Assembly: GCA_963169645.1 (NCBI GenBank)
Contig: CAUJCO010000014.1
Span: 129,001 to 193,000, forward strand
Direction of reading: 5' to 3'
DNA length: 64,000 bases
Origin: Bacteroidota bacterium
Lineage (GTDB): Bacteria > Bacteroidota > Bacteroidia > Chitinophagales > JADIYW01
A program made the translations under genes and the position numbers. Positions 6,180-13,739 of this stretch are shown piece after piece. The notes beneath the pieces were generated by a model that was given only the letters and a program-made list of their open reading frames with translations, searched no databases and was not told where the DNA came from. Numbering within the stretch: position 1 is the stretch's first letter; the number at the start of each line of letters is the position of its first letter.

Positions 6180-9014
6180 TTATTTATTTTTTTTCTTTTT
6201 TATCCAACGTTCTGCATCTATTCCCTTTCTTTCCAAATCAAACAACATGGTTCCATAAACAATTGCACCAATTTTTGGCGAACCATACGCTTCAATATGT
6301 TTGTTATTGTAAATGTTAGAACCGCCTACTTGCAACGTAAACCAACGTGGAAACTCGTAAGCAACTTGCATATCCAAGGTATGATAACTCGGCACTACTC
6401 CATCACCAAACGTACTTTCCCAATTGTATTTGCTCACCCATTTAAAATTAAGTCCAAAACCCAATCCTTTCCAAATTCGTTGTGCATTCACGCCTATATT
6501 AAACTTATGATTGGGTGTATTAAATCCGGGAATAATTGGGTCTGAAAGTTTACGCGTGTCAATTCCGGAATAGGTGTAATTAAATGAACCTATCAATGAT
6601 TTCCAGATATAGTAATTAATACCAATTGAAGCACCAAAAGCATCTACTTTTTGTTTTGCATTGGTTGGCATTTGTATCAAATTGTATGCACCGGTTAAGA
6701 TGGCGTCGGAGCCGGCTTCTGTTCCTACCTGAATGTCTTTATTGCTCGGGCGATAAAAACGCAAATCACCTATAAAATGAAAATATCTATTAAAAAAAGC
6801 CGATACATCAATATACAATTTATTAAAAAATGCACCGCGATAACCTATCTCCCATGAGTTAACTTGTTCCGGTTTTATCGGATCTAATTTAATAGGTTTT
6901 AATAGTTGAGGTTCTACTGAAAAGGTGGAATCGTAATGGTTTCTAAAATCCAAAACAGATTGATAATCGTATCCGTCAGCACCGTGCAAATTTCCTAATA
7001 TTTGAATAGCACCTAAGTCCAATGAAATATATTGATTTTGTAGCGTAGGTGTTCTAAAAGCTTGCTGATAGGAAAAGCGGAATGTATGACTTTTATACGT
7101 ACCGATGATGGAAATTCTTGGAGAAAACTGTGTTTTAAAATTCTCTGCTTTATCAATGCGTGCAGAACCTACCAATTTGAGATGATCTTTAAATAAATCC
7201 ACCGAAAGTTGTGTATATGCACCTACTTCCCATGTATTTAAGTTTACAAATTTTGCTTTCAAATTCGGTGAACCATCAGGCAAAGTATCTGCTATATTAA
7301 CTAGTGTATCATAAAAAATAGAACCGTAAGAACGTGGAATAAACATACGGAAAGATGAACCCACTATCCAATTGATTTTATGTTTAAATGTATGATTGTA
7401 CATTGCCTCCACATGATGTAAAGATGATTTGTCTTGAAACTTAGAACCCGTAACTAAATTGGCATCATCTACAATGATGTTATAGGCGGAATCAAATGAG
7501 TAAGTGCCCGGTTGTAAGTACGCTTGGTTATATGCTTCTTGCAATGCGTAGTTTCTGGAAGCTTCAACTTCATCATTATGCGGATCATCTTTAAAGGAAT
7601 TGGTATAATCCGATAGTTGCGAAAAATACGATTTTATAAAATTGGAAATATATCTGCTAATACCAATCTTTGAAAGATTGATGGCACTAAACACCATATC
7701 ATACGATTTACCGGCATTTTCTTGTGTTGTGTAATATTTTACCATCAACCCTTTATAATCCAATTGTACTTTGTGTTGTTGAAATTTGATATCTTTTACA
7801 TTGTATCTGTTTGCACCTTGATACACAGCACTTCCTAATCCAAATTTATATTGATATTCAATTTGCATATCTTTTATTGGGCGAGCAAACAAGGCGATAT
7901 TTGCTTTGATACTTCGCGTTTTATTATCTGTTAAATCGGTTTCTCTGTAGCCCGGCGTTTTCACATGTACAAAACCCGGAAATGCATTTGGGAAAAAATC
8001 TAAATAGGCATTTAATGCTCTAAATTGTCGAGCAATAGCAGTATCATCACTAAATTGTAATTTCCTTACCACCGTACTAACATTCACATCTGTTTCAATA
8101 TCGCCGTATAAGTTAGCAATGGAATCATCTGCAATCCAATCTTTCGCACTAAAATATCCGCCACTTATTTTGAAACCAAAAACATCTCTGTCATATTTTT
8201 TCTTTCCAAAAGCATTAGCATAACGCACTTGTGCATCTAACATTTGTTGGTTTCCACCTTTTAATTTTACTTGTAAATTTTTATAATCAAATGGATTTTT
8301 AGTTTGCATACTTAACACACCTTGAAATGCATTTGCACCATACAATGCAGATGATGCACCGGAAATCACTTCTACGCTTTCCAAATCCAAATCGTTTGCA
8401 CCTACTAAGTTTCCTACCGGAAAATTTAAGCCGGGTGCTTGATTATCCATTCCATCAATAAACTGTACTACACGAACCGGAGCAGTGGTATTAAAACCAC
8501 GTGTATTAAACACTTGAAAACCCATACTACTTGTCGTAATATCAACTTCTTTCATCGTTCCTAATCCTTGATAAAAATTTCCGGATGCGATATATTGAAT
8601 TTGTTTAGAATTTATTTTTTGTATGGATGATGGAGATGTTTGAATACGTTCGCTTACGCGAGATGCCGAAATAACGACATCATTGCTAACTCTAATTTCT
8701 TGTGCTACTAATGCAACGTCTATTGTTTGTAATTCATTTTCTATTTTTATTTCTTGATCAGCATATCCAAGATATGAAACAACTAAAATAGCCGGCAAAG
8801 ATGTCGTTGCATTTATTTCATAGTTGCCATCGATATCGGTAATAGCTCCAAAATTAGTTCCTTTAATTTGCACATTCGCACCAATCAATCCTTCTTTGGT
8901 ATTGTTATCTTTTATCTTTCCTTTTATAGTAATCTCTTGTGCATGCACTACAACACTCCAAAGTAGGCATAAGAACATCCCGAATAATTTGTATAAATTA
9001 CTTTTAAAAAACAT
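6180..9014 (-). CDS. TonB-dependent outer membrane receptor with carboxypeptidase-like N-terminal domain
   Basis: A 944-residue outer membrane receptor. A signal peptide ends near residue 25 (VVVHAQ). A CarboxypepD_reg-like beta domain follows (about 28-105, with GANVQIKGT and DIDGNYEI), then the plug (about 120-235, with SVEVISGASSALYGANAFQG). A long beta-barrel ends in aromatic strands, though the extreme C-terminus is lysine-rich. TonB receptors import large or scarce ligands such as siderophores, cobalamin, haem, glycans or peptides using TonB-ExbBD energy. It lies 27 bases downstream of a secreted peptidase gene and may take up that enzyme's products. It does not look like SusC: no SusD neighbour is present. 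The ligand is unknown. Confidence 0.92.
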   Translation of the reverse strand: MFFKSNLYKLFGMFLCLLWSVVVHAQEITIKGKIKDNNTKEGLIGANVQIKGTNFGAITDIDGNYEINATTSLPAILVVSYLGYADQEIKIENELQTIDVALVAQEIRVSNDVVISASRVSERIQTSPSSIQKINSKQIQYIASGNFYQGLGTMKEVDITTSSMGFQVFNTRGFNTTAPVRVVQFIDGMDNQAPGLNFPVGNLVGANDLDLESVEVISGASSALYGANAFQGVLSMQTKNPFDYKNLQVKLKGGNQQMLDAQVRYANAFGKKKYDRDVFGFKISGGYFSAKDWIADDSIANLYGDIETDVNVSTVVRKLQFSDDTAIARQFRALNAYLDFFPNAFPGFVHVKTPGYRETDLTDNKTRSIKANIALFARPIKDMQIEYQYKFGLGSAVYQGANRYNVKDIKFQQHKVQLDYKGLMVKYYTTQENAGKSYDMVFSAINLSKIGISRYISNFIKSYFSQLSDYTNSFKDDPHNDEVEASRNYALQEAYNQAYLQPGTYSFDSAYNIIVDDANLVTGSKFQDKSSLHHVEAMYNHTFKHKINWIVGSSFRMFIPRSYGSIFYDTLVNIADTLPDGSPNLKAKFVNLNTWEVGAYTQLSVDLFKDHLKLVGSARIDKAENFKTQFSPRISIIGTYKSHTFRFSYQQAFRTPTLQNQYISLDLGAIQILGNLHGADGYDYQSVLDFRNHYDSTFSVEPQLLKPIKLDPIKPEQVNSWEIGYRGAFFNKLYIDVSAFFNRYFHFIGDLRFYRPSNKDIQVGTEAGSDAILTGAYNLIQMPTNAKQKVDAFGASIGINYYIWKSLIGSFNYTYSGIDTRKLSDPIIPGFNTPNHKFNIGVNAQRIWKGLGFGLNFKWVSKYNWESTFGDGVVPSYHTLDMQVAYEFPRWFTLQVGGSNIYNNKHIEAYGSPKIGAIVYGTMLFDLERKGIDAERWIKKKKNK

Positions 9015-9041: not shown

Positions 9042-11978
9042 TTAGTTAATGGTAAATGACTTAGTTGATTTTTGATTTTCGTTTTTCAGGTCGATAATTT
9101 CTAATAGATATTGTCCTTTTGCAAAATTTCTAAAATCGAAATGATGATTATCTGATATTTCTTTTTGCACTAGTTTATCGCCAATCATGTTATATACATT
9201 GGCTAAATATTTTCCGGATTTATTAATGAAAACATCCAACATTCCATTGCTTGGATTCGGAAACACATTCAGTTCCCAATCCGGTTTTATGGTATTGGAT
9301 TTTATTGCTGTAATTACAGATGTACTACCAAATACAGGCAACTCAATTTGTGTCGGGTATTGATTTGAAAACGCTACGCGTTGTACTGAAATACGTGGTG
9401 CATATTCTACACCATTGTATAAGTAGGTTCTACCATCTGCCGGTTTTCTACGGAAAAATTCGCCATCCATTAATGGAACATTGGCACAAGCTTGAAAGCG
9501 AGGATAATTACTCGATGAGATTAATACTTTAATTTTATGTCCTTGAGCAAAGGTGTAAGCTATTGGATATCCTTGAAAATAATACTCATACAATTTACCG
9601 ATATCGATATTGCTAAAAGGTGCATCATCATTTTGATGACCTTCTGCAATAGAACGAGCAAACTCACGTGCACGTGCATTTACAGCACCTTCTACCACAA
9701 AGAATTCTTTGCCATCCGGAAACACATCTAATATGCGGATAAAGAAATCACAATCAGTAGGTCCGTTTGGTGTATTTCCCGGATTCGATTTTGCATATAA
9801 TTTATACTTAGGATATCCAATAATACTTAATGAATCGGATAAAACATCGGTTTCAAATTTCAACACACCTTCCCTATCCATCGTATATGGTGCAAAATTC
9901 GGATCGGCTAAATTCATTTGTCCTTGTGCATCTCTATCACCTTGTGGTGTGCGTTCCAACATATTACCGCCACCAACCGTTATAATCGGATCATCCGGAT
10001 TATGTACATACGTTCTGAAACCTTCATCCGTTGTTGGTGCCGTAAAATTTAATTTTCCATTTTGATGTAAATACATCGACTTCCATTGGATTTCGTTGGG
10101 TGGAAATACTTCCGAATTCATCCAATAATTTCCGGCATAAGAAACGGTTCCGGAATCGTTAGAAGCACCTACTACATAATAGCGATAGGTCGGAATATTT
10201 TTATACTCATATTGCGGAATGCCCACAAATGGTTCATCCGATGAAATATCTTTAATAATCGGACCAAGATTAGGCAAATCAATATTAAACGGAATTACCA
10301 AACCATTACTACCGCCAATTCTTATTTCAACCGGCACTTGTTTTAAATTTCCTTGACCTAAAATAAAATTCAATAACTCGGCAAATTGTATTTTATAATT
10401 CTGTGCCGGAAAACGTACTTCTACTTGTGGCAACTGTGGTAGCGGTGCTTGCCATAATGTTGATTTTGGAATCAATACTTTGGGTTCTACCACTTTATTG
10501 TATCCATTATAATTTAAATTATATCGGAACCAGCTTACCAATTCCGATTTTGCAATTTCTGTAATGTTAATGCTTCCGCCTTCCGTAATATCTAAGATAT
10601 CTACCTTGGTAATGTCTTTAGTATTTTTAGGATAAATGCGATCGCCTGTTTTAGTACTAGCAACCGTTTGATGTGCCCAAGGACCGATGACAATTTTTTG
10701 CAAATCCCTTCTTTGGGTGATATTATCTTGAATTAATTTATGCGTTTCAATTGAACCATCTATAAAAATATCCCACCAACCTGTTACGTGGAAAGTAGGC
10801 ACTTCCATATTGCTGTATCGAGAATATAATCCATTTCGTTGTCCTTCACCATTGGCATCTACCGGAGCTTTGGTTGCATCCATATCACTTCTTCCTATTG
10901 AATTTGGATAATAACCACACGGTGAATTTTCATAATTAATCGTTACAAAATGATCGATTGCTTGGTTGGCAGCATCAAATTTATCCAGCATGTTATAATC
11001 TTTAGCGGAGTGGATGGTATCATCAATTCCCGTATCAATATCTCTTAATTCATCTTGCAAATCTTTAATTTGCCCCCGCAACCAACCTGTAACTAATCCA
11101 TCTCTTAAACAACCATTATGGTAGCCTGTACTTTTATAAAATTCCAACGGTCCTACAATTGGAAACAAACATTTTAATCCGGGTTGATTGGGATTTATTT
11201 TATGTGCAGCAGCTGCTTGTAATTGGTTATAACCTAAAGCAGATGCCCCAAACATTCCGATAGAACCATTGTACACTAAATCGGTTGTTTCAAAAATGCC
11301 ATCGTTATTTAAATCGTATTTACGTACCAATTGGTTTTTGATAAACTCGATGGTATTGTATCCATCTTCGTGGTTATTACCGTTTCTTGGATCACTGGTA
11401 TTGGTAACATCTAAAATGTGTTTGTAATTATGATAGGGTGTTTTTTTCCAACCATCTGAATATAACGGCAAATAGGCACCTTGCGATGTATATCGTCCAC
11501 GCATATCTTGCACTGCTCCGGCATAACCTAATAATGCCATTGCTGCACCTTCTAATGCACCATCTTTATCATACGGTGTTCTTTCCAATATCATGGGCAA
11601 CTGATAAGGATTGGGATTGGGTACGCCATTTATTGAATCATAAATGAGGTATTGTGCTCCTTTTTGTAGCAAGACAGCGTAAATCGGTATTTTGATTGGT
11701 GGAAAAGGATCCGGCAATAAATTAAATGAAAGCGTATCGTTATAAACAAAACTATCTTGCAAAATAGGTAAATAAATATCCGTCATTAATTTGGTACCGT
11801 CCGGCATTGTAAATGGAACTTGTGTACACGTTGAGAAATCGGTGATATCATCTAATGTTCCATTGATTTTTTTTCCTGGAATTTCAGATGCACCTTGGAT
11901 GGGAAAATACTTTGTTTGTGCAAGTAGTGTTGAGCTGAATACAAAAAATAATACACTCAAAAAGATGGTTCCTTTCAT
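9042..11978 (-). CDS. Secreted CocE/NonD (S15-type) peptidase or acyl hydrolase with T9SS C-terminal domain
   Basis: A 978-residue exported enzyme. The signal peptide MKGTIFLSVLFFVFSSTLLAQ is followed by a large alpha/beta-hydrolase domain of the X-Pro dipeptidyl-peptidase/CocE class. The catalytic triad is visible: serine in GMFGASALGYNQ (about residue 246), aspartate in GWWDIF (about 400) and histidine in GPWAHQ (about 433). A C-terminal jelly-roll-like domain (about 640-880) is expected for the family. The last about 80 residues (NVFPNPSNGMLDVFINKSG onwards) form a T9SS type A sorting domain, so the enzyme is probably released or attached at the cell surface. It precedes the TonB receptor gene by 27 bases. 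Confidence 0.88.
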   Translation of the reverse strand: MKGTIFLSVLFFVFSSTLLAQTKYFPIQGASEIPGKKINGTLDDITDFSTCTQVPFTMPDGTKLMTDIYLPILQDSFVYNDTLSFNLLPDPFPPIKIPIYAVLLQKGAQYLIYDSINGVPNPNPYQLPMILERTPYDKDGALEGAAMALLGYAGAVQDMRGRYTSQGAYLPLYSDGWKKTPYHNYKHILDVTNTSDPRNGNNHEDGYNTIEFIKNQLVRKYDLNNDGIFETTDLVYNGSIGMFGASALGYNQLQAAAAHKINPNQPGLKCLFPIVGPLEFYKSTGYHNGCLRDGLVTGWLRGQIKDLQDELRDIDTGIDDTIHSAKDYNMLDKFDAANQAIDHFVTINYENSPCGYYPNSIGRSDMDATKAPVDANGEGQRNGLYSRYSNMEVPTFHVTGWWDIFIDGSIETHKLIQDNITQRRDLQKIVIGPWAHQTVASTKTGDRIYPKNTKDITKVDILDITEGGSINITEIAKSELVSWFRYNLNYNGYNKVVEPKVLIPKSTLWQAPLPQLPQVEVRFPAQNYKIQFAELLNFILGQGNLKQVPVEIRIGGSNGLVIPFNIDLPNLGPIIKDISSDEPFVGIPQYEYKNIPTYRYYVVGASNDSGTVSYAGNYWMNSEVFPPNEIQWKSMYLHQNGKLNFTAPTTDEGFRTYVHNPDDPIITVGGGNMLERTPQGDRDAQGQMNLADPNFAPYTMDREGVLKFETDVLSDSLSIIGYPKYKLYAKSNPGNTPNGPTDCDFFIRILDVFPDGKEFFVVEGAVNARAREFARSIAEGHQNDDAPFSNIDIGKLYEYYFQGYPIAYTFAQGHKIKVLISSSNYPRFQACANVPLMDGEFFRRKPADGRTYLYNGVEYAPRISVQRVAFSNQYPTQIELPVFGSTSVITAIKSNTIKPDWELNVFPNPSNGMLDVFINKSGKYLANVYNMIGDKLVQKEISDNHHFDFRNFAKGQYLLEIIDLKNENQKSTKSFTIN

Positions 11979-12132: not shown

Positions 12133-12170
12133 AATACCAAAGCTAAGGTATTGTTTAGATTAAATCTAAA
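12133..12170. promoter_or_regulatory. Two adjacent palindromes, operator-like, before the CbiX-like gene
   Basis: The first inverted repeat is AATACC (12133-12138) and GGTATT (12147-12152) with an 8-nt spacer. The second is TTTAGATT (12154-12161) and AATCTAAA (12163-12170), a perfect 17-bp palindrome around one central base. They lie 32-70 bases before the ATG at 12203, where a promoter should sit, with no TAnnTTTG box clearly visible. A dimeric repressor or activator site, perhaps metal-responsive, is the natural reading, but no regulator gene is adjacent. Confidence 0.5.
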
Positions 12171-12202
12171 TAAGTTCTTTGTGGTCAATTAAATATTATA
12201 AA

Positions 12203-13165
12203 ATGACTACCAATACAACATACAAATTCATCAGAAAGTACATCTTTTATTTTTTACTATTTTTAAACGTTTCCTTCTTAGCATCATGCAATAATGGAAA
12301 AACAGAAAATACAGAAGCAGCAACAAACGGAAAGAAAAAAGTAGGTGTTCTATTAGTAAATCATGGCTCACGCTCGGAAACGTGGCGTAAAGCATTAATG
12401 GATTTTGAAAAAGCCGTACAAAGCAGAATTTTAGCTGATGGGAAAATTCAAGGCACCAAAACAGCACACATGGAATATACGGAACCATCTATCGCCACAC
12501 GCTTGAAAGAGTTTGATGCGGAAGGTTATACGGATGTAATTATCGTTCCAATTTTCCTCACAGTAAGTCCGCATACTTTTGATGATATTCCAACAATTAT
12601 CGGACAAAAAGAAGACCCACAATCAAAAGAGATGTTGAAAATTGAAAAGATAGAACGCTACACACCAAAAGCAAAAACATATATTACACCCAATCTTGAT
12701 TTCACAGACATCTTGAAAAAAAATGTATTGAGAAGAGCAAAAGAATTATCGAAAGAACCGGCTAATGAAGGTATCGTGTTAATTGGTTACGGCGATGAAG
12801 CATACGAAAAAGAATGGGCTGATTTGTTTGATAAAGTAGGTGATTTTGTAAAACAAGAAATTGGTATTAGTGAACATACGTATGGTTGGTGCGGACATAT
12901 TGCACACTACGATCCGAAAAAAACTACGGAAGCAATTGATAAAGTATTGACTAAAAAACAAAAGGCTATTGTAATTCCTGTTTTAGTAGCACACGATGAA
13001 ATGTTCCAAATTAAAATTATTGGAGATGGCATTAAAGCCGTAAACAACCATACTGCAAAAGTAGCTTACAAACCGGATGCCATATTACCGGATGTAAATA
13101 TTGAACAATGGGTGATTGATATCACAACTGAATATGCTAAGAAAGTAGAAGAAAATAAAGAGTAA
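12203..13165 (+). CDS. CbiX/CbiK-like sirohydrochlorin chelatase-family lipoprotein
   Basis: A 320-residue lipoprotein. The signal peptide ends in the lipobox FLASC with C29. The ATG at 12203 is preferred over an in-frame TTG eight codons upstream because it gives a normal signal peptide. The mature part has two chelatase-like halves: VGVLLVNHGS (46-55, His53 in the position of the family's catalytic histidine) and a second half with WCGHIAH and VAHDEMF. Class II chelatases insert Co, Ni or Fe into tetrapyrroles; anchored outside the cytoplasm it could instead bind or remodel imported haem or corrinoid. It is followed one base later by a PepSY-type membrane gene and preceded by palindromes. 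Confidence 0.8.
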   Translation: MTTNTTYKFIRKYIFYFLLFLNVSFLASCNNGKTENTEAATNGKKKVGVLLVNHGSRSETWRKALMDFEKAVQSRILADGKIQGTKTAHMEYTEPSIATRLKEFDAEGYTDVIIVPIFLTVSPHTFDDIPTIIGQKEDPQSKEMLKIEKIERYTPKAKTYITPNLDFTDILKKNVLRRAKELSKEPANEGIVLIGYGDEAYEKEWADLFDKVGDFVKQEIGISEHTYGWCGHIAHYDPKKTTEAIDKVLTKKQKAIVIPVLVAHDEMFQIKIIGDGIKAVNNHTAKVAYKPDAILPDVNIEQWVIDITTEYAKKVEENKE

Positions 13166-13166
13166 T

Positions 13167-13739
13167 ATGTTGAATTGGAATATCCGAAAACTAAGGCGGC
13201 TCAACTTAGCAACACACCGTGATTTAGGATATTTTTTTTCCTCGATGATATTGGTGTATTGTATTTCAGGAATTGCTTTAAACCATGTGGACGATTGGAA
13301 TCCTGATTTTATTTTAAATAAGAAAACAATACCAATTGACAGAAGCTACACGCGCGACGAAATCGACGCAACTAAAATCCAAGCATTTGGAAAATTGGTT
13401 GGCGAAACATCGTATAAAGTATATGATTTTCCTACTAATAACCAAGTGAAAATTTATTACAACAATTCATCGTTGCATGTCAATCTTTCTACGAAAGAAG
13501 CCATCTATGAACAGGTTTCCAAACGTCCGATATTTTATCAAGTGAATGTAATTCATCGAAATAGTTTAAAAGGATGGAAATGGGCTTCCGATATTTTTGC
13601 TGTTTTATTAATTGTAATCAACATCACCGGATTGTTTATTTTAAAAGGACGGCATGGAATTTCCGGTCGTGGTAAATGGCTAATTGCAGCAGGTACGATT
13701 CCATTTATTGTTGCAATTATTATTCAAGCTTTAATTTAA
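13167..13739 (+). CDS. PepSY-associated transmembrane protein
   Basis: A 190-residue membrane protein of the PepSY_TM-like type. The N-terminal LATHRDLGYFFSSMILVYCISGIALNH segment (about 14-40) contains the HRxLG signature and the first helix. A periplasmic domain follows (about 41-135), then helices around 138-158 and 168-188. Related proteins accompany siderophore and haem uptake systems, and some act as inner-membrane iron or flavin reductases. It starts one base after the CbiX-like lipoprotein stop, so the two are almost certainly co-transcribed and may process an imported metal complex. It ends 12 bases before the convergent hypothetical gene. Confidence 0.75.
   Translation: MLNWNIRKLRRLNLATHRDLGYFFSSMILVYCISGIALNHVDDWNPDFILNKKTIPIDRSYTRDEIDATKIQAFGKLVGETSYKVYDFPTNNQVKIYYNNSSLHVNLSTKEAIYEQVSKRPIFYQVNVIHRNSLKGWKWASDIFAVLLIVINITGLFILKGRHGISGRGKWLIAAGTIPFIVAIIIQALI

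Follow-up and report, generated by a model that had tools for sequence, protein, structure and literature searches.

A CbiX-type chelatase lipoprotein and its PepSY membrane partner as a proposed module for removing iron from haem in the periplasm

We analyzed two adjoining genes in a 64,000-nucleotide stretch of DNA from a Bacteroidota bacterium of the Chitinophagales (NCBI GenBank assembly GCA_963169645.1, contig CAUJCO010000014.1, positions 129,001 to 193,000 of the forward strand; this whole stretch is called the window). The first gene (12203..13165, + strand) encodes a CbiX-type class II chelatase lipoprotein and the second (13167..13739, + strand) a PepSY_TM_like_2 membrane protein. We lean, if only slightly, toward reading the pair as an iron-acquisition module under Fur control, which would take the iron out of haem in the periplasm, with the chelatase as the proposed reductive haem dechelatase and the PepSY protein as its proposed transmembrane electron donor. 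Computation revealed the gene pair, the chelatase fold, a conserved metal site and an export signal; in many relatives it also showed haem genes and Fur-box-like sites nearby, and in one clade an exchange of the membrane partner. Statements credited to papers (PMC numbers) refer to a part of each paper's text.

The chelatase open reading frame (ORF) was read from the ATG at 12203, giving a product of 320 amino acids (aa); the mechanical ORF call begins at TTG 12179. The product matches Pfam CbiX (PF01903) with 51.4 bits against a cut-off of 22 (E 1.5e-13), and its assignment draws in addition on an AlphaFold2 model compared with known folds by VIA-align. In the translation, residues 1–29 (12203..12289, + strand) form a signal peptide with a lipobox, ending in ...VSFLASC29. 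Exactly one base separates the chelatase stop (13165) from the ATG of the PepSY gene (13167), which runs to a stop at 13739, encodes 190 residues and matches PF16357 (PepSY_TM_like_2) with 52.7 bits (cut-off 27, E 7.1e-14). A first-pass annotation, made from the sequence alone, had described a CbiX-like protein with a lipobox at C29, one base from a PepSY_TM-like gene, and both parts of that description were borne out; the left edge that it gave, 12133, lies too far out and takes in DNA upstream of the ORF.

Relatives were collected by a contig scan with a ten-sequence alignment, which yielded 87 confirmed loci, of which the best 80 were kept. The first-pass annotation had made its reading depend on the pair recurring in other genomes, and it does recur: a PepSY gene lies directly 3' of the chelatase gene, on the same strand, in 74 of the 80 relatives (tblastn). 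Four loci (L099, L100, L101 and L105) lack PepSY and have an FMN_bind membrane protein directly downstream instead, and in two (L089 and L103) the contig ends after the chelatase. A presumed electron carrier, PepSY or FMN_bind, thus adjoins the chelatase in 78 of the 78 loci with room for one. Across 345 genomes of the phylum, 18 match the chelatase at E 0.001 and 10 of them strongly (about E 1e-113 or better, the window's genome included); exactly these 10 carry a PepSY protein of at least 53% identity, adjoining the chelatase. The chelatase-PepSY pair is a real module, with pairing far above chance. PepSY relatives of at most 42% identity occur in 46 further genomes of the 345; many of the loci read among these have other neighbours, so the pairing belongs specifically to the close PepSY clade. 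Twenty distant-PepSY loci (L132-L151) were read, and many lie beside small exported DUF4920-type proteins (calls made by eye, with Pfam run on L134 and one other, L077), which suggests another PepSY partnership; PepSY alone was rejected as a marker of the module, as its distant relatives often adjoin proteins of this type.

The 80 loci carry ten phylum-level labels, taken from record titles and lineages: Bacteroidota, Chlorobiota, Nitrospirota, Verrucomicrobiota, Planctomycetota, Myxococcota/Deltaproteobacteria, Eisenbacteria, Hydrogenedentota, Dadabacteria and Calditrichota. Because most loci are metagenome bins, several from one project, lone outlying labels may be binning errors. Cultured carriers include Runella limosa DSM 17973, R. 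defluvii DSM 17976 and Haloferula luteola YC6886.

Our alignments placed H54 (12362..12364), E91 (12473..12475) and H124 (12572..12574), all on the + strand, opposite SirB His10/Glu43/His76 and CfbA His9/Glu42/His75, respectively, which are equivalent metal ligands, although the metal-site Glu is not retained in every CfbA (PMC11301274). These active-site residues, on which the first-pass annotation had also staked its reading, are present in the window protein and kept in 80 of 80 relatives; for H124 this conservation is partly by construction, since the residue sits inside one of the two patterns used to search for relatives, and H54 and E91 lie outside both. The second half of the protein differs from that of SirB, which carries Arg134/Leu200 (PMC11301274), whereas the window family has a conserved set of its own, Y196, W229-C230-G231-H232 and Y236 (12788..12910, + strand). 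All of these residues, and Q269 too, are invariant across the 71 rows of alignment A4, made up of the window protein, 67 of the 80 loci and 3 second copies. As A4 omits 13 loci, the key residues were recounted over all 80 relatives: H124, Y196 and C230 depart only in separate, longer CbiX-like proteins of L067 and L069, and H232 departs in those two and at a frame break in L098. Judged from the two-lobed fold, the set around Y196, W229-H232 and Y236 is a possible second haem-facing site, opposite the metal site.

All 71 rows of A4 match CbiX (PF01903) at E 0.001 or better and eight match CbiK (PF06180) at E 0.001; for the window protein no CbiK match is listed at E 0.1, and no CobN-type family is among its Pfam or NCBIfam results. 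The AlphaFold2 model (mean predicted local distance difference test score, pLDDT, 87.3) has the two-lobed chelatase fold and is closest to SirB, with Z 19.3 over 244 residues, a root-mean-square deviation (rmsd) of 3.3 and 18% identity, followed by coproporphyrin ferrochelatase (Z 16.6), periplasmic CbiK (2xvz; Z 16.0, 234 residues, rmsd 3.4) and FetB of Porphyromonas gingivalis (9b86; Z 15.5, 228 residues, rmsd 3.5). Aligning the two halves of the chelatase with each other gave a probability of 1.3%, i.e., no statistical support for an internal repeat.

Further chelatase forms were seen in two groups. In green sulphur bacteria a second chelatase copy, 43–49% identical, follows the PepSY gene (L083, L085 and L092; also L081, L091 and L019-L024); these copies keep H54/E91/H124 and show changes at 122, 198 and 265. 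L071 (3239-5233) and six other Nitrospira-type loci encode an additional CbiX-like protein of greater length (median 582 aa), which neighbours TonB-receptor or TonB genes; the one such protein that was scanned has weak CbiX and ferrochelatase matches.

By rule, 63 of the 80 relatives were called lipoproteins, 15 were not and 2 were left unread; correction by eye (two of the calls, L061 and L069, proved false, and three further proteins, L060, L097 and L098, do carry the cysteine) brings the numbers to about 64 with the cysteine and about 14 without. Those without it are mostly Nitrospira proteins with ordinary signal peptides. Acidic residues after the lipoprotein cysteine mark surface export in Bacteroidota. 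None of the 63 rule-called chelatase lipoproteins has at least three acidic residues in the six that follow the cysteine, a feature found in 8 of 35 HmuY-like lipoproteins. The first-pass annotation had called the chelatase surface-anchored, and for this we found no backing: surface display is unsupported by these signals and by the forms that lack the cysteine. As the cysteine is missing in some forms and the signal peptide is kept, the feature common to the relatives is export, and the predicted export suits a partner in the inner membrane.

The model of the PepSY protein has helices at residues 6–39, 137–156 and 165–189, with a PepSY-type domain at about 48–120, between the first two. Every one of the 74 relatives keeps H40 and H130, which lie at the outer ends in the model, and 73 of the 74 keep H17, which lies at the inner end (alignment A5 holds the window and 63 of the 74 PepSY proteins; the histidine counts cover all 74). 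Conserved histidines would therefore lie at both membrane faces, if the faces are correctly assigned from the model and the charges. For PF03929 (PepSY_TM) the window protein scores 27.9 bits, below the cut-off of 28.8. PepSY-like proteins (PF03929, PF16357) and NapH-like membrane proteins are listed as extracytosolic electron-transfer systems, the former described as three-helix proteins tied to iron reduction and Fur (PMC8238504). In 3 of the 4 FMN_bind partners we found Fer4_5 iron-sulphur motifs; the fourth, in L101, is split, and its first part alone was scanned. Because PepSY is replaced here by an FMN_bind membrane protein, the constant need appears to be for electrons, and the property common to both partners appears to be electron delivery. 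Position 266 of the chelatase is P in exactly these four loci, which form one clade (support 100/100), and E in the other 67 of the 71 A4 rows; this change, limited to one clade and one event, may mark a contact with the electron donor. Furthermore, a flavodoxin gene lies in the cluster of two Chlorobiaceae-type genomes (L022 and L023; Pfam run on L022), and its product is a possible cytoplasmic electron donor.

We examined the genes within 8.5 kb of the pair; the counts of HmuY and receptor genes are lower bounds, gene calling being crude in GC-rich loci. HmuY is a haem-binding family. An HmuY-like cluster was found near 41 of the 80 loci; with one protein taken per locus, Pfam confirmed HmuY at E 0.001 for 36 of these 41, and a type IX secretion tail is present in 22. 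A TonB-receptor cluster defined by BLAST (Pfam run on one member) lies near 54 of the 80 loci. As a rough yardstick of chance, the host genome has a single HmuY in its 2.7 Mb, a density at which about 0.6% of 17-kb stretches would be expected to include one. The HmuY-like gene lies directly upstream of the chelatase in 30 of the 80 loci, counted from maps, and the order HmuY - CbiX - PepSY - receptor - HmuY is frequent. Seven loci (L050:11504-11833 and six others) have a gene for a small protein downstream of PepSY, often ahead of the receptor; the one such protein that was scanned is DUF6686.

A Fur-box-like perfect palindrome, with 8-bp arms around one base, lies at 12154..12170, 32 bp before the chelatase ATG. 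It differs from the consensus TTTAGAATNATTCTAAA at 2 of 16 positions; when its own upstream region was shuffled 200 times by dinucleotides, 0.5% of the shuffles matched as well (p 0.005). The exact palindrome occurs once in the genome, at this site alone. At up to three mismatches the whole window holds 3 matches, with 3.06 expected. Among 74 operon fronts (73 loci and the window; 7 loci were too short), 20 have a site within two mismatches of TTTAGAATNATTCTAAA, compared with 2 of 58 regions that precede a chelatase inside an operon, in a test that is partly post hoc, the consensus having been picked after the window palindrome and the first matches were known. The two intra-operon sites (L053 and L068) may be true fronts, the operon walk having been generous, and by shuffling 21 of the 74 fronts reach p 0.02 or lower. 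The Fur box published for Riemerella anatipestifer, ATTTAGAATTATTCTAAAT (PMC5609570), to which the window palindrome bears a resemblance, came to light after TTTAGAATNATTCTAAA had been set; Riemerella Fur bound promoter fragments bearing the box in electrophoretic mobility shift assays, with hmuR among the promoters chosen (PMC5609570). On these sequence matches, the pair may be under Fur control.

The host genome comprises 2.7 Mb in 14 contigs. On its contig C7 (L109:9682-13337) we observed a gene run of DUF6607, a TonB receptor and HmuY, preceded by about 45 bp by a Fur-box-like site with two mismatches to the consensus and three to the window palindrome. The C7 receptor is related to the receptor of L052 (32.5% over 698 aa), and DUF6607 may be a haem-uptake protein. 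In the window, the gene upstream of and divergent from the pair (9042-11978, opposite strand) encodes an S15/CocE-type peptidase that bears a type IX secretion tail, and downstream, also on the opposite strand, come a 146-aa protein without a family and then GldD; since the flanking genes run on the opposite strand, the pair is an isolated two-gene unit. The first-pass annotation had linked the pair to metal extracted from, or exchanged in, imported tetrapyrroles, perhaps together with a divergent TonB receptor. The link to tetrapyrroles and iron gained from the HmuY, TonB-receptor and Fur-box-like context of the relatives; the tie to the receptor did not hold, as the adjoining divergent gene encodes the peptidase and the receptor gene (6180-9014) lies one gene beyond it. 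A role for this receptor was set aside, its best match among the receptors of related loci being 27% over 276 residues.

Chelatases insert divalent metals, and removal of iron from ferric haem requires an electron. Because removal would need an electron and the membrane partner is constant, we propose a periplasmic reductive haem dechelatase; the constancy of the partner would be explained by a chelatase outside the cytoplasm having no reduced nicotinamide adenine dinucleotide (NADH). Haem would be captured by HmuY-type proteins and imported via a TonB-dependent receptor, and the periplasm-facing CbiX-type lipoprotein would bind it. The PepSY protein in the inner membrane would carry electrons outward, probably via haem b held by H17, H40 and H130, and would reduce the ferric haem bound by the chelatase. 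The H54/E91/H124 site would then run in reverse of its biosynthetic relatives and accept Fe(II), to be taken up by FeoB, with the porphyrin left over or exported. For the host genome we infer haem as the substrate, the reverse direction and the electron flow from the evidence above. The host has a ferrochelatase, FeoB and a CobA-type methyltransferase, a Met8-type sirohaem synthase domain (TIGR01470, 114.6 bits, cut-off 62.3), and the window chelatase as its sole CbiX. Since FeoB is present the host can import Fe(II), and with the ferrochelatase, CobA and the Met8-type domain it can probably finish haem and sirohaem without the window chelatase. The wider proposal, an extracytoplasmic class II reductive haem dechelatase with a dedicated PepSY or FMN_bind-Fer4_5 electron donor, spread over about ten phylum labels and including the nitrite oxidiser Nitrospira, is put forward tentatively, and we rate its chances as somewhat short of even.

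Several observations weigh against this proposal. Next to the pair in the window there is neither an HmuY gene nor a haem receptor gene, both being on another contig, and for 39 of the 80 loci no HmuY-like gene was called within 8.5 kb. Matches to the window palindrome with up to two mismatches number 13 in the genome and 14 for the reversed control pattern, i.e., there is no enrichment, and 54 of the 74 operon fronts have at least three mismatches, GC-rich loci such as Nitrospira among them. The replacement of PepSY by FMN_bind counts as one event, because the four loci form one clade. The window PepSY has one PepSY domain and three helices, in contrast to the two domains of FoxB and the at least four helices of characterised reductases (PMC13038864). 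Its sequence had no match among PDB chains, and its model gave nothing convincing among PDB folds, the best being PsbP with Z 6.0 over 70 residues; FoxB is absent among these fold matches, an absence that excludes nothing. Finally, the absence of a PF01126 haem oxygenase from the host genome counts for the proposal, but the other haem-degrading families, IsdG, HugZ and CobN-type, were not searched for there.

The lipoprotein could instead be a haem chaperone that passes haem on intact, with the PepSY protein merely reducing or docking and no iron removed. We regard this as unlikely, though deserving serious attention: Y196, C230 and H232 in the C-terminal half would be plausible haem ligands, and the HmuY/receptor context fits a carrier. 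A pure carrier need not, however, have retained H54/E91/H124 throughout the relatives, nor would it need the presumed electron carrier found wherever there is room for one.

The similarity of the model to FetB raises another possibility, that porphyrin iron is swapped for manganese or cobalt, or that metal is put into scavenged free porphyrin extracellularly; a review credits FetB with making Mn-protoporphyrin (PMC13402209). We consider such metal exchange improbable, given that the window protein matches CbiX and not CbiK and that the Fur-box-like sites and the HmuY/receptor context favour iron supply. The substrate could also be other than haem, with a ferrisiderophore, cobalamin or another metallated tetrapyrrole being reduced and demetallated. 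Characterised PepSY_TM reductases do act on ferrisiderophores (PMC13038864), and the loci where no HmuY-like gene was called, in a count bounded from below, would accord with this. We assign it a low probability, as a chelatase fold with a tetrapyrrole-type metal site and a haem-binding family near about half of the loci argue for haem. A misplaced biosynthetic chelatase for sirohaem or B12, which CbiX membership, the CobA-type methyltransferase and the lack of any other CbiX in the host might suggest, is very improbable and was rejected as the principal explanation, in view of the signal peptide and lipobox, the PepSY, HmuY and Fur-box-like context, and a Met8-type domain that could finish sirohaem.

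If the pair does carry out reductive dechelation, it would be a small class II equivalent, equipped with its own source of electrons, of a system shown only recently: haem iron release without haem oxygenase has been demonstrated for the class I protein HmuS (PMC12583661). It would constitute a second route to haem iron, in which iron is stripped outside the cytoplasm, so haem need not enter. It would also account for the signal-peptide CbiX 'sirohydrochlorin chelatases' that recur beside HmuY and TonB receptors, put right probable misannotation as B12 or sirohaem enzymes, and open haem-iron use to free-living Bacteroidota, green sulphur bacteria and Nitrospira. We found no published description of a CbiX-PepSY pair, and none of the papers covered mentions CbiX and PepSY together; most subscription papers and all bioRxiv-only preprints lay outside the search, which is no proof of novelty.

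Among known proteins, SirB and CfbA share the H-E-H metal site and the fold, and they are biosynthetic enzymes without a signal peptide. The periplasmic CbiK of Desulfovibrio vulgaris (2xvz) is, by its PDB title, an exported class II chelatase; unlike the window protein it is of CbiK type and is titled a cobalt chelatase, and we know of no PepSY partner or HmuY context for it. Known PepSY_TM proteins are periplasmic ferrisiderophore reductases, and those of FoxB type resemble the window PepSY in combining a PepSY domain with membrane helices, conserved histidines and periplasmic iron release (PMC13038864), whereas the partner of the window PepSY is a chelatase. A pepSY gene is drawn in a figure legend for Porphyromonas haem-uptake clusters (PMC12106395), where the terms searched in part of the text returned no mention of a chelatase partner. 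HmuS (BtuS) of Bacteroides likewise removes haem iron anaerobically with a reductant, in a setting of HmuY, HmuR and FeoB; it is, however, a 1469-residue, NADH-dependent class I membrane protein of CobN type (PMC12583661), in contrast to the chelatase described here, a class II lipoprotein of 320 residues whose membrane partner is a protein of its own. IhtB/FetB of P. gingivalis is a lipoprotein of class II chelatase fold that is linked to haem uptake and has been suggested to remove haem iron (PMC10913741; PMC13402209), so that removal by a CbiK-like protein is a possibility already in print (PMC10913741). IhtB is CbiK-like, lies in an operon with ATP-binding cassette (ABC) transporter parts (IhtA-E) and is reported not to be Fur-regulated (PMC10913741), whereas the window protein is of CbiX type, is partnered by a PepSY (or FMN) membrane protein, and has relatives in HmuY and Fur-box-like settings. 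No Iht-type operon (IhtC-E) is present at the window pair, whose neighbours are the peptidase, the protein without a family and GldD. The nearest known systems are FetB/IhtB, of CbiK type, and HmuS, of class I.

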